From: a virus
Strand: one strand, 5' to 3'
Virus record (IMG/VR): IMGVR_UViG_3300032516_004127
Location: 1 to 27,562 of that record
DNA: 27,562 bases
Positions 3,155 through 22,931 of the stretch are shown in pieces (position 1 is the stretch's first letter; each line of letters starts with the position of its first letter). Under the pieces are notes generated by a model, which saw only the letters and a list, made by a program, of their open reading frames with translations, was not told the origin of the DNA and ran no database searches. A program made the position numbers and the translations under genes.

Positions 3155-3163
3155 TCTTACTCC

Positions 3164-3272: not shown

Positions 3273-4004
3273 TTATTTTGCTCTTTTTGCAACAGTACCT
3301 TCTGGAGTCTCAACTAGTACTATAATCCCCTTATCTGCAAGCTCGAGAGCCTTATCTCTATTGAGCACTGAACCTTCAAACTTGACACCCTCTTTCTCTT
3401 TAAGGCCTGTAAAAGAAGGATTCTCGTGCATGTCTTCTCGACGATTCAGATAAACTCTATCAGCAGCTGTAACTGCTGGTTTTTGGGTTTCTTCCTTGAT
3501 AATTTGGTCAATGAGGTCTGCTTCTTCAGAAAGACCCCTCTCGTCAAGTGTATTGGCAATCTTCACGAGTTTCTCAAGGAGGGAAGCCTCTTTCTTCTCT
3601 TCTTTACACTCGCAAACCTCCTTACCACACTTCTCACACTTTACGCACTTCTCTTCAGCCTTCTTGGTGAATTTCTGAACATCAGAGCCTTGGACACCCT
3701 TTGGTTCCTTTGTGGCGACTTCCAGTATGGCATCCTTTACTTCCTGAATTGTCTCAACATGGGCATCTGCACATGGGCAGGTGGCCTTGATGTCTGTTTT
3801 CTTTACATCGTAGACACCCTCACCACCCTTACCAGGTGTTGAGACTTGTGTTGTTACTCCACCACCTGGATGGGCAACCTTTACTTCGTCTTGTGATGGA
3901 CCTTGCTTGCTCTTATCCCAGTATTGGTCCTTATCCAGAGCTTTCTTGAGTAACTTCTTGCCTTCTTCAGTATTGAAAAAAGCTTCCACTACATTCCAAT
4001 CCAT
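3273..4004 (-). CDS. Zinc-binding late protein with LD-G-EAD module and shared C-terminal domain
   Basis: Function not recognised. The start at 4004 is fixed by GGAGG seven bases upstream (TTAGGAGGTAATCAAATG), giving 243 residues. In order: an acidic/Lys-rich N-terminal part; a CPC pair near 76-78; an FTKKA signature at 112-116; a Cys cluster (C120, C123, C126, C131, C133) likely to bind metal; the helical module at 143-171 (LVKIANTLDERG, then EEADLIDQII); and a C-terminal domain (212-243, SVLNRDKALELADKGIIVLV) that recurs at the end of the protein encoded at 20449-21174. It is the last gene before the terL hairpin. I infer a minor virion or packaging role from context only. Confidence 0.85.
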   Translation of the reverse strand: MDWNVVEAFFNTEEGKKLLKKALDKDQYWDKSKQGPSQDEVKVAHPGGGVTTQVSTPGKGGEGVYDVKKTDIKATCPCADAHVETIQEVKDAILEVATKEPKGVQGSDVQKFTKKAEEKCVKCEKCGKEVCECKEEKKEASLLEKLVKIANTLDERGLSEEADLIDQIIKEETQKPAVTAADRVYLNRREDMHENPSFTGLKEKEGVKFEGSVLNRDKALELADKGIIVLVETPEGTVAKRAK

Positions 4005-4019
4005 TTGATTACCTCCTAA

Positions 4020-4033
4020 ATAGTTGCAACTAT
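4020..4033. repeat. 14-bp perfect palindrome at a gene junction
   Basis: ATAGTTGCAACTAT is perfectly self-complementary. It covers the TAG stop of the upstream gene and lies just ahead of the GGAGG of the next. It may be an operator-sized site or chance; no second copy was noticed. Confidence 0.35.
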
Positions 4034-5712
4034 TGGGTTGAAATAATATCACGAACGATATTATCTATTAAATCCGCTTCTTGACTAAACCCTTTCTTGT
4101 CAAGTAAATTAGCAATACGAACTAACCTTATCACATGCTTTGCAGCAAGCGATAACTCTAACTCTTTCTCTTCTTCTTCTTGTGGCATTTGAATTATGTC
4201 GGCCAACTCTTCTTCTTTTTCCTCGGGAACTTCGACTGGTTCTACTTCTGGCTTTTCAAGAACAGGAGCAGGAGCTGGGGCTAACTTGGGACCTTGTGAA
4301 AGGATGCCCTTCAAAATATCTTTCACTTTTTCTTTTAGGTTTGCTGTACCTTCATTTATGGCATCTTGTTGGTACTTTGCCTCAACTTGCTCCATTGAAT
4401 CATATTCGTTACCTTCATCGTCAAACCACATATCTTGCATATCAACGAGTTGTCCTAGAACAACCTCTATTGAACGAGAGAACAAGTTTCTAGATGGGGG
4501 CAATTGTGCTTCTGTTTCTTTCCAAACAAATGTGGGCTTTTCTTTTGGGAGCTTTTCTTTAACAACTTCTTCTTTGGGAAGTCCCTTTTCTGGAATCCAG
4601 AACAAACCGCCCTTATCCAACTTTGTCATGTCCCGCTCTTCATCATTAATGTCATAGCTTTGTTCAGAACCAAGATGCATGACACCAATACCTGGATTTT
4701 GTTTCTTATCTGCAAAAGCAGGAGAATTTTGAAGAACATTGTTAGCTAAATAAGCATTATTAAACATTGACTCTTTTTGAAGTTCAGTAACCTTTTCCTG
4801 AATCTTCTTCTTTGTCTCATCTTGCTTCATAGCTTCTTGTGAATTAACAGTTACGAAATCATAGTTCGGATTCTTCGGATTCTGTACATAAATCTTTGCG
4901 CCACCTGGTGGAGTGTATCCAGCAACATCTGCATATGTCTTTTTCGTTCCAGCAGGTACATCTTTTACTGGGTCTTCTGGCTGATTCCCATTGGGGAACT
5001 TCTTTGCAAGCTCTGCTATTATTTCATTTGTTACAGCAGCACGAAGATAAGGATAGGGATCTTTCATCAAAAAGAATGTAAGCAGTTTGTTGGGGCGTTG
5101 TACACCTTGAATAGAAGTGGTTCCTGTGTGATGCCCACCTGTACCCCTACCTAGTTTTCCTTCAATGTCAATAAATTTAATGTCTGTTACTGCTTCGAGA
5201 TATTTCTTTTGAAGATTAGGAAAAGGTTTAAGACCTTCATAGAAGTCATGAATAACAGTTTCAGATGGAGAACCTTTTCTCTCCCTGGTTTTTTCAAGCT
5301 CTACTTCTTGTTTGTGTAGTAATTTGGTTTTGAGTCCTTCATGCTCGTAGCGTCCCTTACCGAGGAAGGCATCAACATCAAGCAGCTTTTGTTGGAGTTG
5401 GGGATTTGTTTTTGCTTGTGCTTCGAGTTCAGGATAAATTTGTTCTAGTCCTCGTATGAAGGTGTCCATGAGACCTTCCTTATCACGAAGAATCAAATCC
5501 TGAAGAATTTCATCAAATTTTCTTACACTAGAACGCCATACAGTACAACGAAGTGGAACATCTGGTTTAATGCGAGAATCAGTCTTTTTGGTTCCTCTTG
5601 CAATGTTCCAAACTTGGAAAAATCGTCGAGATGCTTTTTCGCGTTTTTCTGACTCCCAGCTCTCGACATCTTCCACCCACTTCATGGACGCATCCTGTGA
5701 TTCTTTTTTCAT
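4030..5712 (-). CDS. Unknown 560-residue late protein with C-terminal LD-G-EAD module
   Basis: Not recognised. The start at 5712 has GGGGAG nine bases upstream, inside the end of the previous gene. Residues 1-230 are mostly helical and charged. Residues 186-200 are Gly/Thr/His-rich (GRGTGGHHTGTTS). Residues 477-520 form a Pro/Glu linker (PAPAPV, then Glu runs). The last 35 residues are the shared helical module (VRIANLLDKKG, then QEADLIDNIV), here placed at the extreme C-terminus. One Cys only, so no zinc site. The linker-plus-tag architecture suggests that the module is a detachable docking element. The downstream gene follows after 25 bases with its own strong SD. Confidence 0.85.
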   Translation of the reverse strand: MKKESQDASMKWVEDVESWESEKREKASRRFFQVWNIARGTKKTDSRIKPDVPLRCTVWRSSVRKFDEILQDLILRDKEGLMDTFIRGLEQIYPELEAQAKTNPQLQQKLLDVDAFLGKGRYEHEGLKTKLLHKQEVELEKTRERKGSPSETVIHDFYEGLKPFPNLQKKYLEAVTDIKFIDIEGKLGRGTGGHHTGTTSIQGVQRPNKLLTFFLMKDPYPYLRAAVTNEIIAELAKKFPNGNQPEDPVKDVPAGTKKTYADVAGYTPPGGAKIYVQNPKNPNYDFVTVNSQEAMKQDETKKKIQEKVTELQKESMFNNAYLANNVLQNSPAFADKKQNPGIGVMHLGSEQSYDINDEERDMTKLDKGGLFWIPEKGLPKEEVVKEKLPKEKPTFVWKETEAQLPPSRNLFSRSIEVVLGQLVDMQDMWFDDEGNEYDSMEQVEAKYQQDAINEGTANLKEKVKDILKGILSQGPKLAPAPAPVLEKPEVEPVEVPEEKEEELADIIQMPQEEEEKELELSLAAKHVIRLVRIANLLDKKGFSQEADLIDNIVRDIISTQ

Positions 5713-5716
5713 TGCT

Positions 5717-8476
5717 TTACTCCCCTAAAAGCCGCTTTGTTAATTTGGATCTTTTTATTTTCCTCTTTAAAATATTAACTCTTGATACTAATGGCATTTG
5801 TTTGACTTCTTTTTGAGCTTTTACTAATCGATCAACACTATGAGTTACATGCCTGTTTTGCTTTTCTTGCGACATCTTTAACAAAACTCTTTCACGAATA
5901 CGACGCCTTGAAGCATATTCAACCTTTTCAAGCTCTTTTGGATCAACAACACTGGCAACTGGAACTTCATTTTCCAAAACTTCTAGACTGTTCCATTCTC
6001 TCACGACAGGAAGACCAGCGGGTGATTTTAAATGAACTGTTACTGTTTCGTCTTCATTGTTGATTTCTATATTATCAACAATGTAAAAGCCAGATGTGCG
6101 AGCCTTGCTGGATTGTAGACTTATTACTTCACCTTTTAGATCTTTTAGTTTTACTTTGCGTTCGTATTGTGAAGATTCCCAGGCTACCCAAGTTGTTCCA
6201 TCTTGGATATAAACAACTCGTCCATGTTTAAATTGTTGGGAATAAACAGCAGTGCCAACTTCCAACTTAATGGGTGCTGCTTGTTTTCCTGGTTCTGTTG
6301 GTTTATCTTCATCAAGACGAGTGCGAATTTCTTGTTCTTCGCGTCCCAGAATATGAACAAATCGGCTATTTCCAATAGCCTTTGGACCGTTACCTATGTA
6401 GTCTGAATCCTCATAAATAATATAAGGCTTTGAACCACCTGGATCGTTTTCGTTGACATCACGAATTACATATTTTTGTTCCCATTCAAATTCCATTACT
6501 TTTACTAGTACTTCGCGATACACGCCACACTTTGGACAAGTGGCTGAATTGATTTCAATGCGTTTATTATCAACAAGAATTAATTCATCATTGCCACAAT
6601 TCCAACAACCACGACCACCTGTTATAGAAATACCAACTTGAATCTTATCAAGGTCGCGTAGCTTTTTAGCTAGCTCTGCTGGAGTTGGCCAGTGTCCAAG
6701 TTCTGTAGCGAGTTCTTGCTCAACATCCTTAACTCTTAACTCTTCAAGACGCTCTTTTTGAACCGTGCGTCTTTCTGTGCTTGTCCAGCGTCTTTTGTGT
6801 CTTTTTGTCAAAGGTTTAAAATCAGAGAAAGTACCACGATACTCTTCTGTGGCACGACCAACCTCTTCCCTAAATGCTCTATGTAGTGCTTCAAAGGGAA
6901 CATTCTTGCTTTCCAAATAATTAATCTCACGCAGCTGTGGTTTTCCCTCGGCATCTTGTGCAAGCAAGGTATTGGGGAATTCATCATCCAAACGCATCTT
7001 TATTTCTTCTATAACCTCTTTGGCAAGTTCATCTAATGTCTTATCATCTGGATCAACACCAAAGCGTCTGAATTGATGTAAAACCATGTCTGTCAAAACA
7101 CGATCAGTATAGTTCAATTTTGTTTCAGTTTTGGTAGCAACATGTGGTGGGTGAATACCGGGAGACGCTCTCAATGCTTCACGACCTAATTCGGCAGCAA
7201 GTTCTTGCTCTCTGCTTTGGAGAGAAGCACCTGGGAACTTTCGGTGGTAAGCATTTATTAAATTCTCACGATATTTACCTGCTTCTGTTGATTGATACTC
7301 AATAACGCCTTCTGGACTTCTTTCAACTCTTCCTAGTAACTCGTCAGCATGTGTTTCCAAATGCTCAAATGGAATAACACCCGGATTATCATTATTAATC
7401 CAGAGCTTATCATGACTATCACAAACCATACACTTTACATAATCACCATGTTCTGGGTCTGTACCTTGCGATGGTCGATGATAAACACCGCTTCCAAACT
7501 CATCAACAGCCTTATTATATAAGTCTTGCAATCCTTCTGGACTTAAGTGTTTCAGTTTTAGTTTTTGTTCTTCTTTGGTTTTGACACCCAACAACTTCTT
7601 TATAACTGAATTAAATTTTATGTTATTTTCTTCTACCTTGTGTTTTACTGATTCTTGCTCACTTTTTTGTTTTCTTTTCTCTACAAGACCCCTATATTCA
7701 TTAGACAATGCCTCGATTTGGCTCTTCATTCCATTCCTAGCTTTTCTTTCAGCAATTGTCAAATCATCCCGTAGAATAGGCTTGGAATAAGTTGTCCCAG
7801 GTTTCAAGAACATGTGAATATAATGCTTTTGTAGTTCGCTAATTTCTTCAAGAATTTTTCGTTCTCTTGACTTTTCTTGTTGAGCTGGTCCTCTTTTGCC
7901 CTGTGGCTTTGTGGGAAACTTAAAGGTTGGACCTTTCTTGCGTGCTATGTCTTCGTCGCTTTCTAACTCTTCGGATGCTTCTATAACAATACCCGCTCTA
8001 TAACCAGCCGATGTTTGGCTTGGAGCATCAATCAAAGAGTCAGCATCTGATGAACCTGGTGATTTCTGTTGGGCATTATCCTCAACATCACGATTTTGTT
8101 GTGATTCAGGACCGAGATCTGTCAATTTGTGGAATGGCTTTTTTCGGGTCTTTTCAAGAAGTTTTGCTTTTTCACTTCCTGGTTTTATACCTGGAAGGAT
8201 AGCAGCAGGGGCATTGCCATTCTCAAATAACATCTTATCATCTTCAAAATTCATTTGTGGAAGATGTGTGGCGAGCTTAACAAAAACTTGCCGACGAAGT
8301 GCTCGTTTTTGCATTTCGTTTAGACCTGTTCGGCTAGCAAAATCTTGTAGAGCATCTTCTATATTGGCATAAGTTTCACGTCCCTCATTCTTTAAGCGTA
8401 TGTGATTAATATAATTTGCTGTTATAATACGCTTTGCCATGGGGGAGTCAAGAAAATCGTTCAACCAATTACTCAT
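5717..8476 (-). CDS. Very large unknown protein with zinc ribbon, C2H2-like site and SH3-like region
   Basis: 919 residues, the longest gene here; function unknown. The start at 8476 overlaps the upstream stop by 8 bases with GAGGAG upstream. Residues 1-90 are helical; 100-200 are low-complexity and charged. C349/C352 with H372/H376 could form a C2H2-type site. Residues 575-610 (DVEQELATELGHWPTPAEL) resemble the helix pair of sigma-70 region 3. C624/C627 and C647/C650 form a clear zinc ribbon. Residues 738-785 (GTAVYSQQFKHGRVVYIQDG) look like an SH3/KOW-type beta barrel. The last 70 residues are strongly basic. The set of parts suggests nucleic-acid binding; a virion-carried, transcription-related protein is possible but unproven. 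Confidence 0.88.
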   Translation of the reverse strand: MSNWLNDFLDSPMAKRIITANYINHIRLKNEGRETYANIEDALQDFASRTGLNEMQKRALRRQVFVKLATHLPQMNFEDDKMLFENGNAPAAILPGIKPGSEKAKLLEKTRKKPFHKLTDLGPESQQNRDVEDNAQQKSPGSSDADSLIDAPSQTSAGYRAGIVIEASEELESDEDIARKKGPTFKFPTKPQGKRGPAQQEKSRERKILEEISELQKHYIHMFLKPGTTYSKPILRDDLTIAERKARNGMKSQIEALSNEYRGLVEKRKQKSEQESVKHKVEENNIKFNSVIKKLLGVKTKEEQKLKLKHLSPEGLQDLYNKAVDEFGSGVYHRPSQGTDPEHGDYVKCMVCDSHDKLWINNDNPGVIPFEHLETHADELLGRVERSPEGVIEYQSTEAGKYRENLINAYHRKFPGASLQSREQELAAELGREALRASPGIHPPHVATKTETKLNYTDRVLTDMVLHQFRRFGVDPDDKTLDELAKEVIEEIKMRLDDEFPNTLLAQDAEGKPQLREINYLESKNVPFEALHRAFREEVGRATEEYRGTFSDFKPLTKRHKRRWTSTERRTVQKERLEELRVKDVEQELATELGHWPTPAELAKKLRDLDKIQVGISITGGRGCWNCGNDELILVDNKRIEINSATCPKCGVYREVLVKVMEFEWEQKYVIRDVNENDPGGSKPYIIYEDSDYIGNGPKAIGNSRFVHILGREEQEIRTRLDEDKPTEPGKQAAPIKLEVGTAVYSQQFKHGRVVYIQDGTTWVAWESSQYERKVKLKDLKGEVISLQSSKARTSGFYIVDNIEINNEDETVTVHLKSPAGLPVVREWNSLEVLENEVPVASVVDPKELEKVEYASRRRIRERVLLKMSQEKQNRHVTHSVDRLVKAQKEVKQMPLVSRVNILKRKIKRSKLTKRLLGE

Positions 8477-8757
8477 CTTCTCTCCTCAATAAGATATTAA
8501 CCTGCTCCGCTTCTTCACTATACCCTTGTTCGGTCAGATTGTCAGCAAACCTTTTCAGCCCCTCGACAAGATTTGCCTTGGTACCTCCTGGAAAGTTTCT
8601 ATATGTACCATCTGAATTTCTATCTACATGTTGCCAATTTGGTGGATGTGGAAATTTACGCAATACTTCTCTTACCCAAGAAAATTGAGGATTACCCTTC
8701 AAAGATTCTTGGATGCAGAACGAATATTGTGCTGCTGAATCCCAACCCTTCGGTTCA
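8469..8757 (-). CDS. Exon 2 of an intron-split small late gene with LD-G-EAD module
   Basis: The open frame begins right after an in-frame TAG (8762-8760) and has no ATG. Its only possible internal start (TTG at 8702) lacks an SD and would cut into good coding sequence. The product from 8756 is 95 residues, starting EPKGWDSAAQYSFCIQES and ending with the shared helical module (FADNLTEQG, then SEEAEQVN). The upstream DNA is a group I intron core, so I infer that this exon is joined by splicing to a short exon near 9797-9825 (candidate fused start MDKYKGMRKI then EPKGW). Joining to the end of the 160-residue gene (HWI then EPKGW) is an alternative. Its stop overlaps the next start by 8 bases. 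Confidence 0.7.
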
Positions 8758-9797
8758 CCCTATGGCTTTCACCATAAGCCGGACTATACCACTATCTCTT
8801 TGGAGATACTCCTTGGTAGTCTCTGGGGCCCATTTTCATGTGCCTGCTGATTGTCCATTGTCACATCCTTTGAATTTTTACTCTTTGGTATCAAAGGCTT
8901 TAGGAGTTTCCAGCATATTCGGAGTTTGCTTACCACATCGCTATGGTAAGGGGCAAGCTATTTACCCAACATGTCATTAAAACTAAATTTTTGCATACCT
9001 CCCCCGATTAGCTATTTTATAGAGCATCGAACCCTCTATATAAGGGGCAATTAAATCGATAAGTTTTTCGGCTTCGGCTGCCAAGAACTTAATATAGGGA
9101 TACCTTTTACCATTTTTATATTCAGCGGTATATTCAATCTTACAATTTACATTCCATACTTCTTTAAAATATTGAATGATGGCATTGTGTTCTTCAATGG
9201 AAAAATCACAGGTCATCAACCTAACACCACCATACTGAACTTTATGGGCATCATCTTGATACCAAATCGCGATGCCCAGAAGAGTTAACTTATTTAGACT
9301 ATCCCGAGTTACATGCTTTTTGTCAGTGTAAAATTCCTTACGAAGAATTCCAAGACTTCGAAAAGAACTGGTATCTATGCGGCATTCTGTTTTACCCGTT
9401 TTTTTACTAATGGGGTACGAAAACCGAGGCTGCAACCTGACCAACTTATTTGCTTTCCATCTTAGGTATTGCTCTTGCTTAAGCCCATGTCCTTCAGCAA
9501 AATAAGATGTTATACTGCTTCTATTATATAAACCACCATCACCTAGAATACTACCTCTAATCACTTGTTCTTCTTCCTGTGTGAGATGGTCGTCAATTAA
9601 ATCGAGATTATGCCCAACCCTGTTTGCATCTATAACACTTCTGGGTTGAATACCAAACTTCCTCATCCATCTATGGATTGTGATGCCACCAACCCCCACC
9701 TCTTTTCCTATTTCATGAGTTGATTTTCTATTCTGATTATATTCCTGTTCCAAGAAGATTTCAATCGGCAGCCCCACCTTCTCTTCGATCTGCCTGA
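8758..9797 (-). ncRNA. Group I self-splicing intron
   Basis: The core is compact and 3' of the homing endonuclease. Landmarks on the minus strand: P2 CTTACCA (8950-8944) with TGGTAAG (8935-8929); P3 TGCTG (8915-8911) with CAGCA (8849-8845); P5 CCTTTG (8897-8892) with CAAAGG (8872-8867); P7 GACTA (8821-8817, in CAGAGACTA) with TAGTC (8786-8782, in TATAGTCC); P8 TATCTC with GAGATA around 8808-8793; P9 CTTATGG (8778-8772) with CCATAGG (8765-8759). The AATCAGCAG and TATAGTCC strings are typical of group I cores. The 3' end is placed at the G at 8758 and the 5' end at 9797 by reading frame and a 6-bp P1 (TAAAAT with GTTTTA at 8983-8978). Both ends are tentative, the 5' end more so. Confidence 0.82.
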
Positions 9798-9825
9798 TTT
9801 TACGCATCCCCTTGTATTTATCCAC
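8983..9825 (-). CDS. LAGLIDADG homing endonuclease in the group I intron
   Basis: This is an intron-borne nuclease that cleaves intron-less alleles to spread the intron. An N-terminal helix-turn-helix (residues about 32-60, STHEIGKEVGVGGITIHRW) is followed by two LAGLIDADG-type helices: IRGSILGDGG (89-98) and LLGIAIWYQDD (182-192). Two motifs in 280 residues indicate a monomeric enzyme. The start is a GTG at 9825 with GAGG seven bases upstream; the ATG at 9807 has AAGGGG directly against it, too close to be a good SD. The frame therefore begins in what may be exon 1 and runs into the intron, and its stop (8985-8983) touches the candidate P1 strand. The gene sits 5' of P2, that is in the P1 loop. 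Confidence 0.88.
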   Translation of the reverse strand: MDKYKGMRKIRQIEEKVGLPIEIFLEQEYNQNRKSTHEIGKEVGVGGITIHRWMRKFGIQPRSVIDANRVGHNLDLIDDHLTQEEEQVIRGSILGDGGLYNRSSITSYFAEGHGLKQEQYLRWKANKLVRLQPRFSYPISKKTGKTECRIDTSSFRSLGILRKEFYTDKKHVTRDSLNKLTLLGIAIWYQDDAHKVQYGGVRLMTCDFSIEEHNAIIQYFKEVWNVNCKIEYTAEYKNGKRYPYIKFLAAEAEKLIDLIAPYIEGSMLYKIANRGRYAKI

Positions 9826-9827
9826 AA

Positions 9828-10310
9828 TTATTCCTCAATCCAATGTTCGTCGTACCCGTCTTCTTGTTCTATAATACCCAGCTGTTGTAGCTTATTTAGA
9901 AACCGACTCTCTTTGTAAAGATTTAACTTATGTCTAGTAATAATCTTGCGGAAAATAATATTAATGTCTGGATTGTTTTCGCGTCTGCAATGCTCCAAGA
10001 ATTCCTCGGACAAGGAGTTATAAAATTCATCTTCATTTGGAGAAGCAGCAGCGAATGAGCCAATCACATATTGAGCACCTTGACCTGTTATTGTTCCTGG
10101 TTGTTCAATATATGATGCAACAGTAATATTTGATCTGCTTAATTCATCGAAATAAACATTAGCGAATACAAGAGCTTCATTATAATTTTCTGTTTTATGT
10201 GTGAAACCCTTGACATACCTATTTTGGGAGTCTGTTACAGAGACACGATAATAAAGTGTCTTTGCATCATCTTTGGCTTCTAAATTGACTGTGTAGTCTG
10301 GGTTTAACAT
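9828..10310 (-). CDS. Unknown 160-residue late protein
   Basis: Not recognised. The sequence is acidic, with a beta-rich N-terminal half (YYRVSVTDSQNRYVKGF) and a helical C-terminal part ending SRFLNKLQQLGIIEQEDG, which reads like a small winged-helix fold. The start at 10310 has no SD; it lies six bases after the previous stop (GCATAACATTTTATG), so translational coupling is likely. The last codons supply the GAGG used by the GTG at 9825. It has no LD-G-EAD module and no Cys pair. Its very end is one candidate 5' exon for the downstream intron, but it reads as a complete protein. Confidence 0.78.
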   Translation of the reverse strand: MLNPDYTVNLEAKDDAKTLYYRVSVTDSQNRYVKGFTHKTENYNEALVFANVYFDELSRSNITVASYIEQPGTITGQGAQYVIGSFAAASPNEDEFYNSLSEEFLEHCRRENNPDINIIFRKIITRHKLNLYKESRFLNKLQQLGIIEQEDGYDEHWIEE

Positions 10311-10316
10311 AAAATG

Positions 10317-10982: not shown

Positions 10983-11034
10983 GATCAAACTCCTTGTCCT
11001 ATTGTGATTTCCAAATTTATTTTAATTGGTGTTC

Positions 11035-12312
11035 CTACCAGTTCTTTACTTCTTCTGATTCTTCAGATGGACGCGCTCTTCCTTTTAATCCCTCACCTCG
11101 TCCAGGTACAGGTTTAGTAACTTTTGGGACCACTGGGGCAGCAGGTGTAGCAACAGGTGTACTCGTCATTTGACGAGCTGTATCTAGTAATTTTGTGAGT
11201 TGGTCTGGCTTTAAATTAAGTTTATTTAATTCCTCAACCAATTTAATTGAATCTGTTGGTATCAGTTGTGTCTTTTCCATTTCCCCTGTTGGCTGTTCTT
11301 CTTGGGCTTTTGGTGCTGTTGGCTGCTCTTCTGGTGTTGCCTCTGGTTGTGCTGCTGGTGCTAGAACCTGTAGTTGTGGCGAAAGTCCCTTCATATTATT
11401 CTGGAAAGCTTCTGTTGCTTGTCGGAAAGCTGGTATATATTTTGACAAATCACCCATATTTTTACCAGATGCCTGTAGAGCATCATAGGCAGCCTTTAAT
11501 GTATTCACAAGATTCCAGTGGGCTTGAGCTTTTTCTTGATACTTTGGATCTAATATACTCTTCCACTTATCCTTGGTTTGTTGGAAGAACTGAGCAGTTT
11601 TAAGAACTTCTGTAATCTTATCAGCTACCTCAAATTCACCTTGCTCGTCCATTTTATCAGCAAGTTTAAGAAGTTGTGGAATAAGTGATGCTTTTAGGGC
11701 AGCACCTGGTTGAGCTGATTGAGCTGCTGGTTGAGTTACTGGTTGAGCTGCTGGCTGCTGACCTGCTGGTGCTGCTTTAAGAGTATCTGCTTTTTGTTGC
11801 CATCTACTTTGGACATCTTGTACTGCCTTATCAGCTGCTCCAAGAGCAGGACCAATACTATCTTGTATACTCTGAATGACTTGTTTTACTTCTTGGTCGT
11901 ATTGGGGAGTACCTAACCGCTTATGAGCATCAGACAATCTCTTTAGAGCATCATTGATTTGCTTGACAAGGTCCCAGTGATTCTGGCGTACTTTTGTCAT
12001 AGCACCACGGGTATCTTTGTCCATTTCCTTTTCAGTCTGATACCAATTCTTAAGTTGCTGCCCCTTCTCTTTCATCCATTGCCATTGTGCTTCTTTCTGG
12101 AGTACTTTATCAAGAGCATCAGCAAGTTCTGGATGTCCAGACTCGTCAAGTTGGTTTGCCAAAGCAATAATTCTTTGAATGGTTTCTGCTTTCTTCTTGT
12201 CGTGCTTCTCTTTCTTGAGACCTGTACTTTTTGTGCAGATGGCCCAAGCCTCTGATTCTGATTTACCTGAATCTTGCACTTTCTTTACACAGTCCATTAA
12301 TTTCTTTGGCAT
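11035..12312 (-). CDS. Two-repeat helical late protein with SAWAIC-type N-terminal motif
   Basis: 425 residues; AGGGAG seven bases before the ATG supports the start. Residues 1-32 (MPKKLMDCVKKVQDSG, then AWAICTKSTG) match a short motif common at the start of phage and bacterial proteins of unknown role. Two diverged tandem repeats follow, each made of the LD-G-EAD module, a Trp-rich linker and a helix pair: 46-175 (IALANQLDESG, QNHWDLVKQI) and 210-312 (LKLADKMDEQG, QAHWNLVNTL). They are joined by a Pro/Ala/Gln linker (180-205). Each module is followed by a K-x-AQ string (QKEAQ, LKTAQ). The C-terminus is Pro- and Arg-rich. No enzyme motif is seen; a structural or scaffold-interacting role is plausible. 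Confidence 0.85.
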   Translation of the reverse strand: MPKKLMDCVKKVQDSGKSESEAWAICTKSTGLKKEKHDKKKAETIQRIIALANQLDESGHPELADALDKVLQKEAQWQWMKEKGQQLKNWYQTEKEMDKDTRGAMTKVRQNHWDLVKQINDALKRLSDAHKRLGTPQYDQEVKQVIQSIQDSIGPALGAADKAVQDVQSRWQQKADTLKAAPAGQQPAAQPVTQPAAQSAQPGAALKASLIPQLLKLADKMDEQGEFEVADKITEVLKTAQFFQQTKDKWKSILDPKYQEKAQAHWNLVNTLKAAYDALQASGKNMGDLSKYIPAFRQATEAFQNNMKGLSPQLQVLAPAAQPEATPEEQPTAPKAQEEQPTGEMEKTQLIPTDSIKLVEELNKLNLKPDQLTKLLDTARQMTSTPVATPAAPVVPKVTKPVPGRGEGLKGRARPSEESEEVKNW

Positions 12313-12324
12313 AAACCCACTCCC

Positions 12325-13038
12325 TTATCCATATAAACTATAATAGCTAAAATCGTGGTATTGATAATAATTCCTATCCAAATTAACAGTATTAAACCCC
12401 TCAAACAACCTAGGATAGATAGGGCTACCTCTGTACATCTTTGGCATTGCTCGTCCAGAAACTTCAGTCCCAAAATTACAATTTACTGCTTCTTTTCCAT
12501 CAAGAATTTGGGCAGCAAATGGACAGGGCTTACCTGTTCTGTATTTTTTAAATAGTCTTACATTTTGCTTAAATTCTGCTGGACGAGAATCCATTTCTTG
12601 GATTGCTTCTGCTCCAACACTTTCACAAGCGCTTGGAATTGGCAAACCAAATGGACATCTTTGTTCTGAATCTAGATTGTCTTTTCTTATAACTGCTTTC
12701 TTGCAAAAACCACAAACTGAAGCAAGATTGTGCTTGATTTTATACATTGACAAAATAGAATCAATAGCACTTTGTTGCTCAAATGCCTCAATCTCAATCA
12801 CCTTATCAAGTTCGTCTGATATTTCTTTTTGTCCTAACCTATCAAGTGTGTCAGATATTTTAATTAAATTGTCAAATGATCCTGTATAAATTTGAACATT
12901 TTCTTCTAGAGAAACATTATCTTCTTGCTTTATTTCTAACCCTATTTTAAGGGCAACATCTTCTATTTGTTGAGCGACAGAGTGTAATCCCTTAGCATCA
13001 ACAATGTTAGCAATAGAGATAAGTTTCTGCTTATCCAT
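12325..13038 (-). CDS. Cys-rich late protein with two LD-G-EAD modules
   Basis: 237 residues from the ATG at 13038; AAGAG lies nine bases upstream, in the end of the previous gene. Two modules are at the N-terminus: residues 4-33 (LISIANIVDAKG) and 57-88 (LIKISDTLDRLG). A Cys-rich part follows: C109 and C112 (CGFC), C128 and C138 (RCPFGLPIPSAC), C172 and C187. The CPFGLPIPSAC string suggests a structured metal or Fe-S site, but I cannot name the family. The tail is Tyr-rich (NYYQYHDFSYYSLYG). Function unknown; it sits among other module-bearing genes. Confidence 0.83.
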   Translation of the reverse strand: MDKQKLISIANIVDAKGLHSVAQQIEDVALKIGLEIKQEDNVSLEENVQIYTGSFDNLIKISDTLDRLGQKEISDELDKVIEIEAFEQQSAIDSILSMYKIKHNLASVCGFCKKAVIRKDNLDSEQRCPFGLPIPSACESVGAEAIQEMDSRPAEFKQNVRLFKKYRTGKPCPFAAQILDGKEAVNCNFGTEVSGRAMPKMYRGSPIYPRLFEGFNTVNLDRNYYQYHDFSYYSLYG

Positions 13039-13042
13039 CAAA

Positions 13043-13975
13043 TTATACTCTTGGTTGTGTTGGGACTGGTGGAGCAGACATTCCTGGTCTTCCTTCTGGT
13101 CTTATAGGAAGTTCTCGAGGTTTTGACACCTGCTTTCTCTGTCTTGGTACCTGACCCAACGAAGTATATACTTCCACCAATTTCTTGTGGATTCCATCAA
13201 TGTCGTCTAGTTCTTTTTTAATGATGTCAAGAATAGTGTCAGCTTCTGAATTGCGACCAAGAGCGATTAGATGACCACGAATTTTCATCATATTATCAAG
13301 ATGGACACCATAATTAAAAGCATCTAACTCTTCTTTTATCATTTCCATTATTGAGCCTAGGTTACCACTTGCTACTTCTTCTTCTGCTGCTTTTTTTGTT
13401 AGTGGTGTTTTGCCAAAAGAAGCAATAATAGAAACACTTCCTGCCATTATGTCTGCTATCTCAACCAGACCAGCCTTGCGGAAGATACCATTTGCTCTAT
13501 TGTGACGAGCCTCCATCAATTGAGGACGATTAAGAAGATTTACTTCTTCCTTTAGTTTTTGGAGAATACGACCAATATAAAGAGCTTTATCATTACTACC
13601 AGCAAGTAGTCCCTCGTCAATCATTTTATTGAGGAGACGCTCGGCAGAGTTGATTCTAGAACGCAGCTTTTTCTTCAACTCATTTAGTTGCCCTTCTTGA
13701 TTGGCAGCATTATAATCGTAAGCTGTTTTTTCCATGCTCATGTTATGTTGTCCTCGCTTATTGGTCTGTGTTAGTCTCCACCAATCTTTGAAACTATTTT
13801 GTTCCTGAAAATCCCACTTTTGAGTGAAATGATCAATTAACTTATCCATAGTATAATCTTTATAAAGTCTAGCAGCCATTTTGACTTTAATAGATGTTTC
13901 CTTCCACTTCTTTAAGTCGAAGGGAGGTTTTGGAGCACCTCTAAATCCTGTTGGATAAGCTTCTCGGTCCATCAT
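13043..13975 (-). CDS. Helical late protein with divergent LD-G-EAD module
   Basis: 310 residues, not recognised. The start overlaps the previous stop by one base (TAATG). Residues 1-75 contain aromatic and basic segments (LKKWKE, SFKDWWRLTQ). Residues 95-150 form long helices (LNELKKKLRSRINSAERLL). Two K-x-A strings occur (FRKAGL near 165, LTKKAAEEE at 192-200). The module is divergent (MMKIRGHLIALG, then SEADTILDIIKKEL, 229-256). The C-terminus (280-310) is Pro/Arg-rich and probably disordered. Its place directly after the putative small terminase suggests a packaging or prohead protein, but no family is recognised. Confidence 0.82.
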   Translation of the reverse strand: MMDREAYPTGFRGAPKPPFDLKKWKETSIKVKMAARLYKDYTMDKLIDHFTQKWDFQEQNSFKDWWRLTQTNKRGQHNMSMEKTAYDYNAANQEGQLNELKKKLRSRINSAERLLNKMIDEGLLAGSNDKALYIGRILQKLKEEVNLLNRPQLMEARHNRANGIFRKAGLVEIADIMAGSVSIIASFGKTPLTKKAAEEEVASGNLGSIMEMIKEELDAFNYGVHLDNMMKIRGHLIALGRNSEADTILDIIKKELDDIDGIHKKLVEVYTSLGQVPRQRKQVSKPRELPIRPEGRPGMSAPPVPTQPRV

Positions 13976-14754
13976 TAGGCCTTAATGTTTATGTTGACTT
14001 TCGGAGTATCATCTTCATCGTCTTCGTCGTTATCTTCAACTTCTTCTGCAAATTGTTGCTCATCTATACGAGCAGCTTGCATCTTCTCTGACATCTTATC
14101 CATAAAAGTTGACCAAATGTCAGGGCATAATTCACAGATTGTTTCGCGAAGTGCTGTCTTTATAATCTGAATTTCACGAGTGATACGACCAATGTCTATA
14201 TTTACATTTGTTTGTTGGTCGTTCTTTAATTTTTGTTCCATGTCAAAGGCATCTTTTAAGATAGCTCGCATGGCATTAAGTTGTTCTGTTATTACTTTTT
14301 CATTTAAATGGAATATCTTTTCACCTTCCATTATAGTAAGACGCTCTTGAAGTTTAAAATATATCTCTTCTAATCTTTGATTTGTGTTACTTATTTGTAG
14401 AGCGTAATTTTCGGCATACTTTGCTTTTGCTACTTGGTAGGCTGGTTCAGCATGGGCAACCTCAACAGCACGACGCTTTTTTTCTTCGTCTAACTTTACT
14501 TTTCGTTCTTTTTTAAGGTCAGCTAGTACTTCACCTTCAAGATTTAAGAAATTTTGTCGGTAAGCATTCAGGGTCATTTTATTGACCCATAACTTCTTAT
14601 TCTTGGAAAATTTTTGTTTGAGCCAATTAGCGACAGCTTCTACTGATTCACCCGCCAAGAGTCTTTCATCTATTTCATCCTTTGAGGGATGTTTTCTTAC
14701 TGATGCACCTGTGGCAGGATTGCTTTTTCTTTTTTCTTGACTTTCTTCGGTCAT
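13975..14754 (-). CDS. Helix-turn-helix plus coiled-coil protein, possible small terminase
   Basis: 259 residues; AAGG precedes the ATG by six bases. Residues 24-72 (DEIDERLLAGESVEAVANWL, then KMTLNAYRQNFL) look like a helix-turn-helix for DNA binding. Residues 75-200 are long charged helices suited to oligomerisation, and the tail is very acidic (EDNDEDDEDD) before a short ordered end. This order (N-terminal DNA-binding domain, central oligomerisation helices, C-terminal tail) is that of phage small terminases, which bind the packaging site and load TerL. There is no decisive motif, and it lies about 11 kb from terL, which is unusual, so the assignment stays tentative. Confidence 0.8.
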   Translation of the reverse strand: MTEESQEKRKSNPATGASVRKHPSKDEIDERLLAGESVEAVANWLKQKFSKNKKLWVNKMTLNAYRQNFLNLEGEVLADLKKERKVKLDEEKKRRAVEVAHAEPAYQVAKAKYAENYALQISNTNQRLEEIYFKLQERLTIMEGEKIFHLNEKVITEQLNAMRAILKDAFDMEQKLKNDQQTNVNIDIGRITREIQIIKTALRETICELCPDIWSTFMDKMSEKMQAARIDEQQFAEEVEDNDEDDEDDTPKVNINIKA

Positions 14755-14762
14755 ATTTAACC

Positions 14763-16091
14763 TTATTGTTGCACCCCTTGTCCTGGGATTGGTGCTGGTG
14801 GTACATTCATTTCATCGTGTACTTCTATTGTCTTTGGTTGCTCTGGAACTGCTTTGCTTGACTTCTCAATGAAGTCGTATGCTTCCTTGGCAGCAATCAT
14901 CAATGCCTTACCTTGGAATACACCATCGACAATTAAGCCAAGTACTTTTTTGGAATCTTCTTCACCACGAAGAGCCAAATCAATATCACGAGCTAATCTG
15001 TATTCCAAATTGGTATAGGCTTTCTTTGTAAAGTGTTTCACACTACCCTTCATTAGGAAGGGATGTGGACTTTGATAAAACTCTGGAAAATCTGGTGTCA
15101 TTTCAGCAACATTACCACCATTGTGTTCTTTGCCATCGTGGGTTTTAAAGCCCTTCTCATAATCGTAAATTTCACGATCAAGTGGGCACTGGAAGACACT
15201 ATCAGCTATACGATAAAGCGAAACACCAGGATGGTCTGGACAATAACGACTATGACGAATTGTTGGGGCAAACATCTTATCCATAATGCCAAGCGATTCT
15301 GCCTTCTTGGTGAATGGTTGGAAGCTTGCTTTCTTTTCTTTCTTGTCATCAGAATAAAGTTTTTCTGTTTCTTGATACTTTGTGTCTTTGTTCTCCTTGT
15401 ACTCTGGACATTTCTTGTTTTCGAAGGATTGTTGATTTGGAGTATCAAGGAACCCCTTTTGAGGGAAGGTCTTATTCCAATTTGGATTGGTTTGATTCTG
15501 AACACCAATCTTTGCCTCAACATCGTGTCCATCTGTATAACTGAACACTTCACCCTTCATTGGGCATTGATAGACACCATCTTTTACCCGACGCATCATA
15601 ACGCCAGGATGTTCTGGACAATAACGAGTCCATTCGAATGGTTCAGCATAAATACCAACGCTCTTTCGACCAATTGGTTCATATACAGTATCTGCTGTCT
15701 TTACCTGTTTATTGCTATTACCAACACTCCAACCCTCACCCTTTGCCTTATTAATTTCAGTTAGAGGATTTGGATAGTCAATACCAACAACTCGGCTACC
15801 ATTAAAGTCAATCCAACTTGCGACTGCCTCTGCTGTAACCTTTACTACCGCATCGCCAACCTCTAGAATACGGAACCTATTAGTCTTCATCCAGTTCTTT
15901 ACGAAACGTATGAAGTCTGAACCAACAGGAACACCTGCTGGAACTTTTGGCTGTACATCAGGATTCCACTTTTGAGCTGCTTCTTGGAGCCAAGCAGTTC
16001 CAATCTCAGCAACAAGTGAGTCCTGAGTGTCGGCCATTTGAGCCAACTTCCTTCTCTTCTCAGCACGAACTCTCAGTTCTTCTTTGTCCAT
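14763..16091 (-). CDS. Late protein with two CPxHPGV zinc motifs and two FTKKA sites
   Basis: Function unknown. I chose the ATG at 16091 because GAGGTGAG lies just upstream; an ATG at 16106 overlaps the previous stop but has no SD. Of 442 residues, two copies of a compact motif stand out: RYCPEHPGVMMRR, then VYQCPMKGE (157-180), and RYCPDHPGVSLYR, then VFQCPLDRE (283-306). The C, H, C pattern suggests metal binding, perhaps with a fourth ligand elsewhere. FTKKA appears at 260-264 and 354-358, each shortly before a new segment, so cleavage there would release domains. The central region 205-255 is polar and low-complexity; the C-terminus is Pro-rich (PPAPIPGQG). Confidence 0.86.
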   Translation of the reverse strand: MDKEELRVRAEKRRKLAQMADTQDSLVAEIGTAWLQEAAQKWNPDVQPKVPAGVPVGSDFIRFVKNWMKTNRFRILEVGDAVVKVTAEAVASWIDFNGSRVVGIDYPNPLTEINKAKGEGWSVGNSNKQVKTADTVYEPIGRKSVGIYAEPFEWTRYCPEHPGVMMRRVKDGVYQCPMKGEVFSYTDGHDVEAKIGVQNQTNPNWNKTFPQKGFLDTPNQQSFENKKCPEYKENKDTKYQETEKLYSDDKKEKKASFQPFTKKAESLGIMDKMFAPTIRHSRYCPDHPGVSLYRIADSVFQCPLDREIYDYEKGFKTHDGKEHNGGNVAEMTPDFPEFYQSPHPFLMKGSVKHFTKKAYTNLEYRLARDIDLALRGEEDSKKVLGLIVDGVFQGKALMIAAKEAYDFIEKSSKAVPEQPKTIEVHDEMNVPPAPIPGQGVQQ

Positions 16092-16105
16092 GGACTCACC
16101 TCTCA

Positions 16106-17767
16106 TTATGTCATTTTGATTTGATTTGTAATGATGACACCTTTATACGAATCATCATGTTGTCGGTTCCACTCCAAATGTGCTCTTGTGCAAACACCGG
16201 CTTTCTTTACGATGTTGCTGCACTGTGTATGAAGTAGGTTGCAGTAATCAGATGCAGATTTGTGCATTGATGCGATTGTTGCACCGCGTGGTTTGTAATA
16301 CTTGCACTGACTACAGCGAGCATTATAATCTACAGATGCTTGTGTAATCCATTCTTGATAATCGGCAACTGCTGCATTGTGTGCATCAACACCAAACTTA
16401 TCTTGAATTAGAGTCAGCGCTTCACGAGCCACATTATGTTTCCTATCAAAAGTGGCTTTGTGAATAATCTTGCGAAGACTATTATAATCCATATCTACTA
16501 GTACCGAACTATATCGTGAAATCTCGACCAATTCTTCTTTATTAAGCATTGCCTCTACTTGATGTGGCTCAATATTACGAACTTCACCATCATCAGCAAT
16601 AAACATTGAGGGGAACAAAACATTACCTTCGGCTACTTCTACGGGAACCGAAACCTCAACCTTCCCTCTCTTTGTCCAAAGAGTAGCATCGTAAGTCATA
16701 CCCTTTGTGTGGTCACCAGCAAAACAGACATCACTCTTAACACCAATCTTCTTGAACTCGTTAGCAACTAGGTCACGACCAAGTCCAATTGCTTGTTCAG
16801 TGTAACGGGAGGCTTTACGAATAACAGCATCTTCTAGGATTTTCTCGACATTAGCTAATTCGGGATTAATTGAGGAGAGTTTTGCAGGAACGATCTCTTG
16901 TACATAGGCTTGGATTTCATCAATCTCAATAGCACCTTCTTTTGGGTCACGAACAGTATCAGAAGTTAGATTATGCCGGATAGCATTAGCAGCTTCTAGG
17001 TCTGATTGTTTGCGAGACTCAGTGGCGTCATCAAGCAGTTTTTCCATACCAGCCTCATTAAAGGCATAGGCATTTTGACCAGCCAAATCAACGAATAGTT
17101 CTGGAACCTCTGGCTGACCAGCATTGATAACAATAGGCACATTGATATGAACAGTGCCAGTTGTGGTTGGGAAAGAGGCTAGATAGAGTAACCCCTTGGT
17201 AGTTCCAACCTTCAAAGAGGTTCGAACATTCTTACAACCAATGGTTTCTAGTTGAGTCTTTACTAACTCACTACCAGCCTTAATTATTTGTGGATTATAG
17301 GAAGCCAGAGCAGGAGTAGGAACGACTTTGTCAATTCCTAGAACCTCTACAGGCTGATCAAGAGCAGCTTGGTGCTCATCAACCTCAATTGACTCCTGCT
17401 TTGCAGTCGAAAGATCTCGCTCTGCAGTCGTATAGGGAATCCGACGCTTCTCGAAGGGATTGCTCGCCTTCTTAACCTCCACATCAGGAAGAAGGTCTGC
17501 ACAAACCTCTTTGAATGGGGTCTGTGGATTAAGATTCACAAAACTGTTGTACAGTTTGAAAATCTCCTCAGCTGTAATCACACGAGCTGGTTCTCTTTTA
17601 GCAATTGCCTCTAGAGCACCACCAACATTGCGAATGACGGGGTCAAAACGATACTTATCCTCCATGCTAGCAAACCGCTTCACAAGACTATCAACAGGAA
17701 AAGTCCTGTTAGCGTCTAGTATTAGCAAATCGACCAAGCCTTGGATAATCTCTTTTGTGTTATCCAT
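16106..17767 (-). CDS. Late protein with a duplicated internal domain and C-terminal Cys cluster
   Basis: 553 residues; a very strong SD (AAAGGAGGAG) precedes the ATG. Two diverged copies of an alpha/beta unit are visible: about 126-250 (IEVDEHQ, ELVKTQLETIGCKNV, TTKGLLYLASF, TVHINVPIVI) and 279-414 (IEIDEIQ, DLVANEFKKIGVKSD, HTKGMTYDATLW, KVEVSVPVEV). The C-terminal part holds C485/C488 (CSQCKYY), C509, C516 and C526, a likely metal site. K-x-A strings occur at 99-102 (VKKAS), 317-320 (IRKAS), 502-505 (HKSAS) and 521-524 (VKKAG). No known family is recognised. Its start overlaps the previous stop by 8 bases. Confidence 0.86.
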   Translation of the reverse strand: MDNTKEIIQGLVDLLILDANRTFPVDSLVKRFASMEDKYRFDPVIRNVGGALEAIAKREPARVITAEEIFKLYNSFVNLNPQTPFKEVCADLLPDVEVKKASNPFEKRRIPYTTAERDLSTAKQESIEVDEHQAALDQPVEVLGIDKVVPTPALASYNPQIIKAGSELVKTQLETIGCKNVRTSLKVGTTKGLLYLASFPTTTGTVHINVPIVINAGQPEVPELFVDLAGQNAYAFNEAGMEKLLDDATESRKQSDLEAANAIRHNLTSDTVRDPKEGAIEIDEIQAYVQEIVPAKLSSINPELANVEKILEDAVIRKASRYTEQAIGLGRDLVANEFKKIGVKSDVCFAGDHTKGMTYDATLWTKRGKVEVSVPVEVAEGNVLFPSMFIADDGEVRNIEPHQVEAMLNKEELVEISRYSSVLVDMDYNSLRKIIHKATFDRKHNVAREALTLIQDKFGVDAHNAAVADYQEWITQASVDYNARCSQCKYYKPRGATIASMHKSASDYCNLLHTQCSNIVKKAGVCTRAHLEWNRQHDDSYKGVIITNQIKMT

Positions 17768-18869
17768 TGAAAACTCCTCCTTTACCTAGAGATGCTATCC
17801 GTTGCACCATGTGCAATCGTCTTTTTCTGTTCGCTGTTATATTGCGCCTAGTTATTAGTATCTGTAATCTTGCTTCTGTGTCACTTGTCTGTGGCTTTGT
17901 GGTTTCTTCAAGATCTAATTTTACAAGCCTTTCATATTCTCTTTGTGCTTCTTCAGTAGATAATTGTTTCCAAGGTAGTTCCTCAAGTTTATCTACGACC
18001 TCTTGCAGATTACTCATAGCAGGAAGCAAAAAAGCTTTTACACCAGATGTCAAGTAAGGACCAGGATATCCTTCAGAACCGAATGTTGATTCTAGAATCC
18101 GAACCTCATCACTCAAAGCTTGATATAATACTGGTTTTATAATTTTTCTACCTCGTTCTGACTTTATCTTTGATGCTAAACCATTAGAAGCATCTAGAAT
18201 AGCATTGCCCCCACTGGTGGTGAAGTAACTGTATACAAGATTGTATATTAAAGAAGACGCTTCATTTAAAAGCTTTATAATTGCATTGATTTCTGGAATT
18301 CCTGCTTCTGCTGTCCGTTTTATTCTCTTTTCTATTTGGGCCTTGATTGACTCAAGTTTATCTTTAATGTCTTTTGGAAGTTTGTCATATCCCTCTGGGT
18401 CTTCTCTGCGTATTCTATCCAACTCATTTCTTAGCTTATTCTCGGGACCATAATAAGTTTTGGGAAGATTTCGGTGACGCTTATATTCTTTTTCTTGTTG
18501 CTTTTGCTCAAGTGCATAGGGATACATTTCTCTGTACCACTTGGTTTTTTCCATAAACTCTTTTAGGGAGTCAATCCAAGTTCTTTCCATGCTCTTGGCA
18601 ATATCCATACCCTCTATTGTTATTTTACTGAACCTCTTGACCCATTCATTAGATTGATGCAATGCTTTAATAGCATCATCAACAGAATGTGACACTATTC
18701 TCTTGGTTGCCTCATCAAGTGGATCTTCTTGTGAAACAACTATTGCCTCTATTAACTCGTCTTTTCTTTGTTCCATATAACCAAGAGATTCTGTAAGACT
18801 ATCAATAACCTTCTCAAGTTCTGTTTGTACAATGTTCAGATGTTGTGATAAACTTAAATTTTTAGTCAT
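17760..18869 (-). CDS. Unknown helical late protein, 369 residues
   Basis: Not recognised. The protein is almost entirely helical and charged: coiled-coil-like at 10-45 and at 115-185 (KEYKRHRNLP, KLESIKAQIEKRIKRT), with a more ordered segment at 190-290 (IYNLVYSYFTTSGG, then PGPYLTSGVKAFLLPAM). The basic C-terminus ends GKGGVFNG. It has no Cys and no LD-G-EAD module. The start is four bases after the previous stop with only a weak GAG upstream, suggesting coupling to the preceding 524-residue gene, which is also helical; the two may form a pair. Confidence 0.82.
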   Translation of the reverse strand: MTKNLSLSQHLNIVQTELEKVIDSLTESLGYMEQRKDELIEAIVVSQEDPLDEATKRIVSHSVDDAIKALHQSNEWVKRFSKITIEGMDIAKSMERTWIDSLKEFMEKTKWYREMYPYALEQKQQEKEYKRHRNLPKTYYGPENKLRNELDRIRREDPEGYDKLPKDIKDKLESIKAQIEKRIKRTAEAGIPEINAIIKLLNEASSLIYNLVYSYFTTSGGNAILDASNGLASKIKSERGRKIIKPVLYQALSDEVRILESTFGSEGYPGPYLTSGVKAFLLPAMSNLQEVVDKLEELPWKQLSTEEAQREYERLVKLDLEETTKPQTSDTEARLQILITRRNITANRKRRLHMVQRIASLGKGGVFNG

Positions 18870-18872
18870 AGT

Positions 18873-20447
18873 TTATAACTCGTAATTTAGTAAACCATTA
18901 AAAGCCTTTAGAATATTATCATAGGCTTGTGAGAATGGCTTTCCTCCACTTTCGGTGGGTGATAAATAATAAACTACTGTATTGGCCATAGCGGTAATAT
19001 ATTCCCTATACCATATTCCCCACACTACCTGATTTCGTACATTGTCTTTCTCTTCTTTTATCTCATCAAATTGATTTTGCTGTTCTTTATATTTCTCTTC
19101 TCTGGACCGAATACTATTAAGATGTTGTTGCTCAAAGGCATAAATATTTTCTTGAAGTATTTTGAGTGCCTCTTGAGAAATATTGGGTTTGTAGTTTGTA
19201 TTGTTAGATCTCAGATTTAAATATTCTGAAAATGTGTGTGTTGTACTTGTCAGTCCTTTTACATAGCTATCAAACCACTCTTGAAGATTAGCTACTTCTT
19301 TTTCTATAATTTCACAACGCTCATGTGTAGCAGATTCAGCATACCCTGCACCACCTGTGGGGAGTGTGTATCTCCTTGACATTCCCTTTATAAGGGCATC
19401 GTTTGTGTTATAATTTTCGTATGCCTTTCTTTTTGTTCCTGCTGCCCATTCAGCTTGGTCAGTTTCTACCTCTACTTCTGCCTCTTTTCCGCCTTTTGCT
19501 TGGAACTCCTGTTGTTGTTGATTGATTTTAGCTGCGAGTGCCTCAAAAGATGTTTTCATTACTCTGATGCGTTGTAGGTTATCTTTTTCTAATTGATAAG
19601 ACCTCTTAGTCTTAGGCAAACCTTCCCGAAGATTATCAAACTTAACCTGATTCTCTTCTCCTATTACATCATTTACTTCATGCTCTACCTTTTCTACCGC
19701 TTGTTTAAAAGGTCGTAGCCTCTTTTCCTCATACATTTTATAAACTATTTTAAATAGTGGTGAGTCTGGATCAGCCTCTTGAGGAATAGAGTCTGTAAAT
19801 TTCACTAATTTTTCTTGTACTTGCTTTGTGTTGTGTTCTTTTATCGAAATACCAATATCATTGAGATCATTTATCATTGATAGTAATGAATTTTCTATCT
19901 CTTCACCTATTTCTTGTTTAAGTCTATCTTCACGACTTATATCACGAGAACGCACCCAAATAAGCATTTCGCGTAATGCACTTACGGTATCAACAAGTGA
20001 ATCAAGAGACCGACTAACACTTTGCTCCTCTGAACGAGCTGAATAAACTCCTCCCAGCATTCGTCCAATCCCAGCAACTTCATTCATAAATTTACGATAT
20101 TTTGCATCGTATTTTGTACCACGCATATCTTCTTCGTAAATTGGTCTCATGACACGAGTTACTATTTCCTCTATGGATTTTTGAACTCTTGTGATTACTT
20201 CTTGTTTTGTTAAGTCCATAGTGGAGATATCAACTAGGGGAATGTTTAGGTCTTCTTTTATTGTCTCACCAGAGCCATATTTACGAGCTACCAATAAAAT
20301 CTTTGCTAGTTTAGCCAGTAAAAACTTTTCACGAGCACTGAGAACACCTGCTCTCTTTGATATGATTCTATCAAGAAGATTTGCTTCCTTGTGGAATCCA
20401 AGAGCATCAATTCTGTCAGCTATTTTTACCAGACTCTCAAACTTCAT
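18873..20447 (-). CDS. Unknown 524-residue helical late protein with N-terminal LD-G-EAD module
   Basis: Residues 4-31 are a near-consensus copy of the shared module (LVKIADRIDALG, then KEANLLDRII), followed by SKRAG, so the module could be released if K-x-A is a cleavage signal. The rest is helical: 75-220 and 255-340 include Glu/Lys/Gln-rich coiled-coil stretches, and 345-400 has a Gly-rich loop (LPTGGAGYAES). Only one Cys is present. The start at 20447 follows the previous stop by one base (TAATATG), with a purine-rich but weak SD. No family is recognised; it is probably a structural or scaffold-associated virion protein by context. Confidence 0.83.
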   Translation of the reverse strand: MKFESLVKIADRIDALGFHKEANLLDRIISKRAGVLSAREKFLLAKLAKILLVARKYGSGETIKEDLNIPLVDISTMDLTKQEVITRVQKSIEEIVTRVMRPIYEEDMRGTKYDAKYRKFMNEVAGIGRMLGGVYSARSEEQSVSRSLDSLVDTVSALREMLIWVRSRDISREDRLKQEIGEEIENSLLSMINDLNDIGISIKEHNTKQVQEKLVKFTDSIPQEADPDSPLFKIVYKMYEEKRLRPFKQAVEKVEHEVNDVIGEENQVKFDNLREGLPKTKRSYQLEKDNLQRIRVMKTSFEALAAKINQQQQEFQAKGGKEAEVEVETDQAEWAAGTKRKAYENYNTNDALIKGMSRRYTLPTGGAGYAESATHERCEIIEKEVANLQEWFDSYVKGLTSTTHTFSEYLNLRSNNTNYKPNISQEALKILQENIYAFEQQHLNSIRSREEKYKEQQNQFDEIKEEKDNVRNQVVWGIWYREYITAMANTVVYYLSPTESGGKPFSQAYDNILKAFNGLLNYEL

Positions 20448-20448
20448 A

Positions 20449-21869: not shown

Positions 21870-21890
21870 CTTCTTCTCCCTTATATCTCT

Positions 21891-22930: not shown

Positions 22931-22931
22931 A

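Follow-up and report, generated by a model that had tools for sequence, protein, structure and literature searches.

A detachable helical module on otherwise unrelated late proteins of phages with phage G-type heads is a candidate prohead-targeting tag

Results

Nine module copies in seven late proteins

The stretch of DNA analysed here, hereafter the window, is IMG/VR record IMGVR_UViG_3300032516_004127, whose 27,562 bases are the whole known extent of this viral genome. A sequence-only reading had pointed to about nine copies of a short pattern in seven late proteins. Our profile search placed nine ungapped 31-residue copies in those same seven proteins, all on the minus strand:

1310-3157, minus strand: terminase large subunit (TerL; phrog_675, 4e-64; GpA_ATPase), without the module
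3489-3581, minus strand: copy 1, residues 142-172 of the 3273-4004 protein, preceded by K-E-A; C-terminal in relatives
4045-4137, minus strand: copy 2, residues 526-556 of 560, at the C-terminus of the 4030-5712 protein
8996-8964 (exon 1), about 8963-8751 (group I intron, RF00028) and about 8750-8469 (exon 2), minus strand: small module gene
8478-8570, minus strand: copy 3, in exon 2 of this intron-interrupted small protein, at the C-terminus
11593-11685, minus strand: copy 4, internal, residues 210-240 of the 11035-12312 protein, with K-T-A at its end
12091-12183, minus strand: copy 5, residues 44-74 of the 11035-12312 protein, then K-E-A
12787-12879, minus strand: copy 6, residues 54-84 of the 12325-13038 protein
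12943-13035, minus strand: copy 7, residues 2-32 (N-terminus) of the 12325-13038 protein
13211-13303, minus strand: copy 8, internal, residues 225-255 of the 13043-13975 protein; the weakest of the nine
14763-16091, minus strand: module-free protein with F-T-K-K-A sites; its orthologs in three presumably marine phages have a C-terminal module
20352-20444, minus strand: copy 9, residues 2-32 (N-terminus) of the 18873-20447 protein, then K-R-A
22932-24008, minus strand: RecA-like recombinase by sequence, on the replication side, without the module

Leave-one-out profiles searched against the 27 window proteins recovered eight of the nine held-out copies at E-values of 0.0055 or better; the copy at 13211-13303 reached E=0.15 only, and its ortholog in the related contig G001 scores 8e-5. 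Among the seven carriers, four pairs are similar with their modules in place and none once the modules are masked, which bears out the earlier claim that the rest of each carrier is unrelated. Two further parts of that reading held in the window: copies lie at the N-terminus (7 and 9), at the C-terminus (2 and 3) or internally (4 and 8), and, as it had claimed for TerL and the replication genes, no module scored in TerL, the RecA-like protein, primase, SSB, resolvase or the other genes above 21.2 kb.

The module gene that had been read as split, with exon 2 at 8469-8757, is indeed interrupted by an intron, and exon 2 is more accurately about 8750-8469. The intron is group I (RF00028, 51.5 bits) and was placed after codon 11, the splice point being our own reading and good to a few bases; the spliced product, MQKFSFNDMLGKGWDS..., agrees with the intron-free ortholog in contig G003. 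A LAGLIDADG-type endonuclease gene (8983-9825, minus strand), also kept in G001 and G002, lies directly upstream, overlapping exon 1 and outside the intron. Elsewhere in the window, the 14763-16091 protein has an internally duplicated Cys-rich domain (RYCPDHPGV...QCP), a duplication that shows in the DNA as a 91-base direct repeat (15159 and 15537, 70%), and the 3273-4004 and 20449-21174 proteins have similar final ~30 residues, LNRDKALELADKGIIVLVETPEGTVAKRAK and LNLDKAREYEKQGIVELIQTPQGLIARKK.

Predicted fold and spread among relatives

An AlphaFold2 prediction made from 77 copies gives a helical hairpin with helices at residues 2-14 and 18-30 (mean pLDDT 95.7), in which L5, A9, L12, D13, G16, A21 and D25 are near-invariant. 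The full-length model of the 12325-13038 protein is poor (pLDDT 40.8); both of its modules are nonetheless helix-turn-helix. Searches of Pfam (zero matches for all nine window copies), PHROGs and the PDB, the last by sequence and by fold, gave no significant match, the fold matches being to generic helical hairpins only.

Starting from TerL, we found four related contigs, G001 (26 kb), G002 (49 kb), G003 (91 kb) and G004 (11 kb), with 6 to 11 module copies each in orthologs and in further genes. The search of this genome and related phages that the sequence-only reading had proposed found copies in both. A strict DNA pattern of the module core matched 47 stretches of IMG/VR with over 100 copies, many on contigs of 100-317 kb; because this pattern samples only near-consensus matches, these counts understate the true spread. 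We take the large contigs to be those of marine or aquatic phages, habitat being absent from the records. On them the module is mostly N-terminal, starting at residue 1 (MIKELIKLANELDSRGLVKEADYLDSIIKKA and the like), and its carriers are many small unrelated proteins, with about 20 tagged proteins in G005, 16 in G008, and 12 each in G006 and G009. Clusters of small tagged genes sit far from the head genes in these large genomes, so that the earlier claim of restriction to one gene block applies to the window and fails in its larger relatives.

Over 142 copies, 57 were N-terminal, 18 C-terminal and 67 placed otherwise, and some proteins hold two or three. Where the tag is N-terminal, the gene's start codon is also that of the tag and mostly has a ribosome-site-like sequence; no common promoter was seen upstream of tagged genes. 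For 99 tagged proteins (4851 pairs), the number of similar pairs fell from 2812 with the module to 32 with it masked. An HExxH protein and a tagged protein that are two genes in G006 (68751-70466) form a single open frame in G008 (113816-114775), G009 (32229-33158) and G010 (72337-73149); the internal tag has an ATG with GGAGA before it, suggesting internal translation starts.

Beyond these phages, tblastn of module copies against 50,697 phage records returned nothing real, and no module was found at E up to 1 in phage G, Rctr197k, Tunturi_5, Myrna, E3 or one 485 kb uncultured phage. No other common tag stood out in the head blocks of phage G and Rctr197k. In 84,980 cellular genomes the DNA pattern matched four stretches, none tag-like: two are one protein found twice (E=3e-4), with the match internal, and the remaining two score nothing.

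Gain and loss of the module

The C-terminal half of the 12325-13038 protein is module-free in five relatives, and in G004 this half and the module are separate genes. The 14763-16091 protein, module-free in the window, has a C-terminal module in its orthologs from G006, G009 and G010. As judged from these orthologs, the module has been gained or lost on the same protein and is in that sense detachable in evolution.

Identical module residues in the window use the same codon at a frequency of 0.410, against 0.419 expected by chance, and mean nucleotide identity between copies is 46.8%; no palindrome or strong DNA repeat was found at the copies. Chance-level codon sharing indicates that the module has been kept as protein rather than freshly copied as DNA. 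A slight excess of shared codons between copies in G005 and G006 hints at some recent tag duplication there.

Head genes of the phage G type

Using window-protein profiles, we found the window syntenic with G006, G008, G009, G010 and G017, in the order RecA, primase-like and next genes, a conserved block, and TerL. Contigs of 120-317 kb from presumably marine phages are among the relatives with this gene order. In G009, TerL is followed by a portal (phrog_16240), a fusion of a protease with a long C-terminal part, and a major head protein (phrog_2522). This head protein occurs in 8 of 20 module contigs, and the rest of these contigs may be incomplete. Among isolated phages, Bacillus phage G comes closest (51% identity in the major head protein, 32% in the portal), and by these similarities the head genes of the module phages are of phage G type. 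As phage G and five other head-gene relatives are without the module, heads of this type do not need it. Tail sheath and DNA polymerase A searches of the large contigs gave no match.

The head proteins of the examined module phages have a ~40-residue N-terminal extension with [IL]-[VL]-[KR]-Y-A that phage G gp27 lacks; that this extension is the module's docking partner is only an idea. The 3273-4004 module protein and the C-terminal part of the prohead-protease fusion (loci compared: L006:11890-15216, and G003 20037-23174, L012) have an AHPxGG...DAHxET segment in common (E 5e-5), a second common segment that appears to link the 3273-4004 protein to the head core. Compared with G003 and G009, the portal gene of G002 (18817-23073, L006/L007) seems to be broken by two intein-like insertions.

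A motif shared by head proteins and tag boundaries

Outside the modules, the late proteins of the window contain 27 Phi-x-K-x-A sites against 9.8 expected from shuffles, and the replication-side proteins 1 against 3.3, the replication contrast covering the window and G001 only. In the head blocks of eight contigs, we counted 59 sites in the first 40 residues (10.4 expected) and 204 beyond residue 40 (83.4 expected), compared with 84 (47.1) and 297 (274), respectively, outside head blocks; these counts take homologs repeatedly, each listed contig being nonetheless enriched alone, and the shuffles behind the expected values do not preserve helix periodicity. Glycosyltransferases occupy 72-91 kb of G003. 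K-x-A ranks first of 400 residue pairs (182 against 58.3), the runner-up being far weaker. The 63 tags that start with Met end in [KR]-x-[AS], and the two residues are coupled in phase (29/31, p=8e-5; 30/32, p=3e-5), with no coupling out of register. In phage G the motif is enriched in gp4-gp27 (25 against 9.3) and not clearly so in gp28-gp65; the enrichment in this head block (L126) extends to the protease-like gp19.

T4 served as a positive control. The known site of its prohead protease, gp21, is [IL]-x-E, and a statistic of the same kind placed this motif first in gp21 substrates (46 against 22.3), which it did not do in T4 gp18-gp20. From the head-block enrichment and this control, we infer that Phi-x-K-x-A is the prohead-protease site of the module lineage. 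A common short motif enriched in head proteins is also present at the tag-cargo junction, as in prohead-protease propeptides. In the window, K-x-A stands at the module boundary in four of the nine copies, and therefore cutting cannot be universal.

Cargo of the tag

Searched against Pfam, 89 tagged proteins gave few known domains: LysM in three, two of them also with a cell-wall hydrolase, and a CCA-adding enzyme, an ArdC-type antirestriction domain, an ArcS-like domain, cupin and PilZ. By eye, we also noted tagged HExxH proteins and one peptidase-like protein. The sequence-only reading would have been contradicted by hits spread evenly over non-virion genes; no such spread appeared, in that none of the 89 had a Pfam match to a replication family, a weak test because most tagged proteins are without known function. 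The cargo domains fit, and do not prove, delivery alongside the genome: in T4, injected IPI* counteracts a restriction enzyme (PMC3012670), and P1 packages DarB (PMC9024508). The CCA-adding enzyme and ArcS-like domain are not typical virion cargo. In G005 (110494-112848, L068), a CCA-adding-enzyme-like domain is fused to a HAD-like one; this protein has a module at its C-terminus and a degenerate module-like stretch that separates the two domains.

Discussion

Two independent signals link the module to head assembly: the phage G-type head genes, and the Phi-x-K-x-A motif over-represented in head-block proteins, whose K-x-A unit also closes N-terminal tags. Our preferred interpretation, which we consider probable though far from certain, is that the module is a transferable prohead-targeting tag, often removed by the prohead protease and similar in action to the T4 capsid-targeting sequence (CTS). 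The two-helix hairpin would dock on a procapsid component or its internal core, and docking would bring the carrier protein into the assembling head. The prohead protease would then probably remove N-terminal tags after delivery, since a Phi-x-K-x-A site usually follows them, and the mature cargo would stay in the head. In the window's branch the module is also built into proteins encoded between RecA and TerL, and it might dock these during assembly. The docking or capsid-targeting role put forward in the earlier reading is in these terms the best supported account, though supported in part: the module is detachable, lies beside phage G-type head genes, and on N-terminal tags ends in the head-block motif, while docking, the docking partner, cleavage and presence in the virion are predictions from these patterns.

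The strongest rival that remains, although we regard it as unlikely, is a generic protein-protein hairpin that pairs with itself or a common partner during assembly or in the virion, with neither head addressing nor removal. Its TPR-like geometry, the matches to generic helical hairpins only, the proteins with two or three copies, and the many internal window copies with no K-x-A boundary would all suit such a role. Dozens of tiny unrelated proteins carrying the tag exactly at their start, closed by K-x-A, look instead like addressing and not like oligomerisation.

We find it improbable that the tag localises proteins to a non-virion compartment or a host-takeover complex in the infected cell, as might be suggested by tagged clusters away from the head genes of large genomes and by the CCA-adding enzyme, ArcS-like and ArdC domains. 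The window's carriers are most closely syntenic with TerL, portal, protease and major head protein; through the K-x-A unit the tags are linked to the head block; and no tagged protein matched a replication family. Less probable still is a folding tag that recruits a chaperone, for example the GroEL that some module phages encode. G009 has a phage GroEL (phrog_5725), the matching place in G010 is taken by a 552-residue protein, and the N-terminus of the T4 head protein is reported to direct proteins to GroEL (PMC10052503), a precedent for this role; C-terminal and internal placement and the many tiny carriers are not suggestive of a folding tag. Scattered, detachable copies in unrelated genes recall an in-frame mobile DNA element like the Rickettsia palindromic element, with no protein function, but we rejected this for the window as highly implausible, given codon sharing at chance (0.410 against 0.419), 46.8% nucleotide identity, copies with no DNA-level similarity, inverted repeat, palindrome or strong repeat, and tags that begin at start codons.

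More tentatively, a prohead-targeting tag together with its matching protease site may form an address code that loads many proteins, including effectors delivered to the host, into heads. If so, the packaged cargo of a large uncultured giant-phage lineage could be listed from sequence alone. Little is known of what giant phages carry in their heads and inject, and finding out normally takes an isolate and proteomics. With a tag readable from sequence, candidate cargo could be listed for uncultured phages and new anti-defence and host-takeover proteins could be tracked down; the tag itself would be a new peptide with which to load proteins into phage heads.

Comparison with known systems

In shape the module resembles TPR hairpins (rmsd about 0.3-1 A over 27-31 residues), but its copies are single or widely spaced and not in tandem arrays, match no TPR family, and have their own D13 and D25. 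Phage G (Donellivirus) supplies head-gene relatives in gp14, gp19 and gp27 and shares the Phi-x-K-x-A enrichment in gp4-gp27, yet its whole 497 kb genome is without the module and its gp27 without the ~40-residue N-terminal extension. The predicted Phi-x-K-x-A site is a concrete prediction for the prohead-protease specificity of this isolated phage.

In SPN3US, 13 of 14 prohead-protease sites remove N-terminal propeptides, with a short motif (PMC10052503); propeptides of this SPN3US/phiKZ type are not described as one common module, and their cut motif differs from Phi-x-K-x-A. The DarB signal of phage P1 is likewise N-terminal, a stretch of at most 30 residues sufficing to carry a reporter into the capsid, but no common sequence was found among Dar proteins (PMC9024508), whereas one module family is present on many proteins here.

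The T4 CTS is, like the module, one short conserved segment on otherwise diverse proteins: T-even internal proteins are highly diverse, have only the conserved CTS in common and are taken into the scaffolding core (PMC3012670). In both systems a head-protease motif, putative in the case of the module, follows the tag. The module differs in being a 31-residue two-helix hairpin that is also C-terminal and internal, in ending its tags with [KR]-x-[AS] (Phi-x-K-x-A) and not the gp21-type [IL]-x-E, and in belonging to an unrelated head lineage whose module carriers are predicted to enter the virion. Because sequence, fold, placement and protease motif all differ, the module falls outside the T4 CTS family, and the likeness between the two would be one of action.
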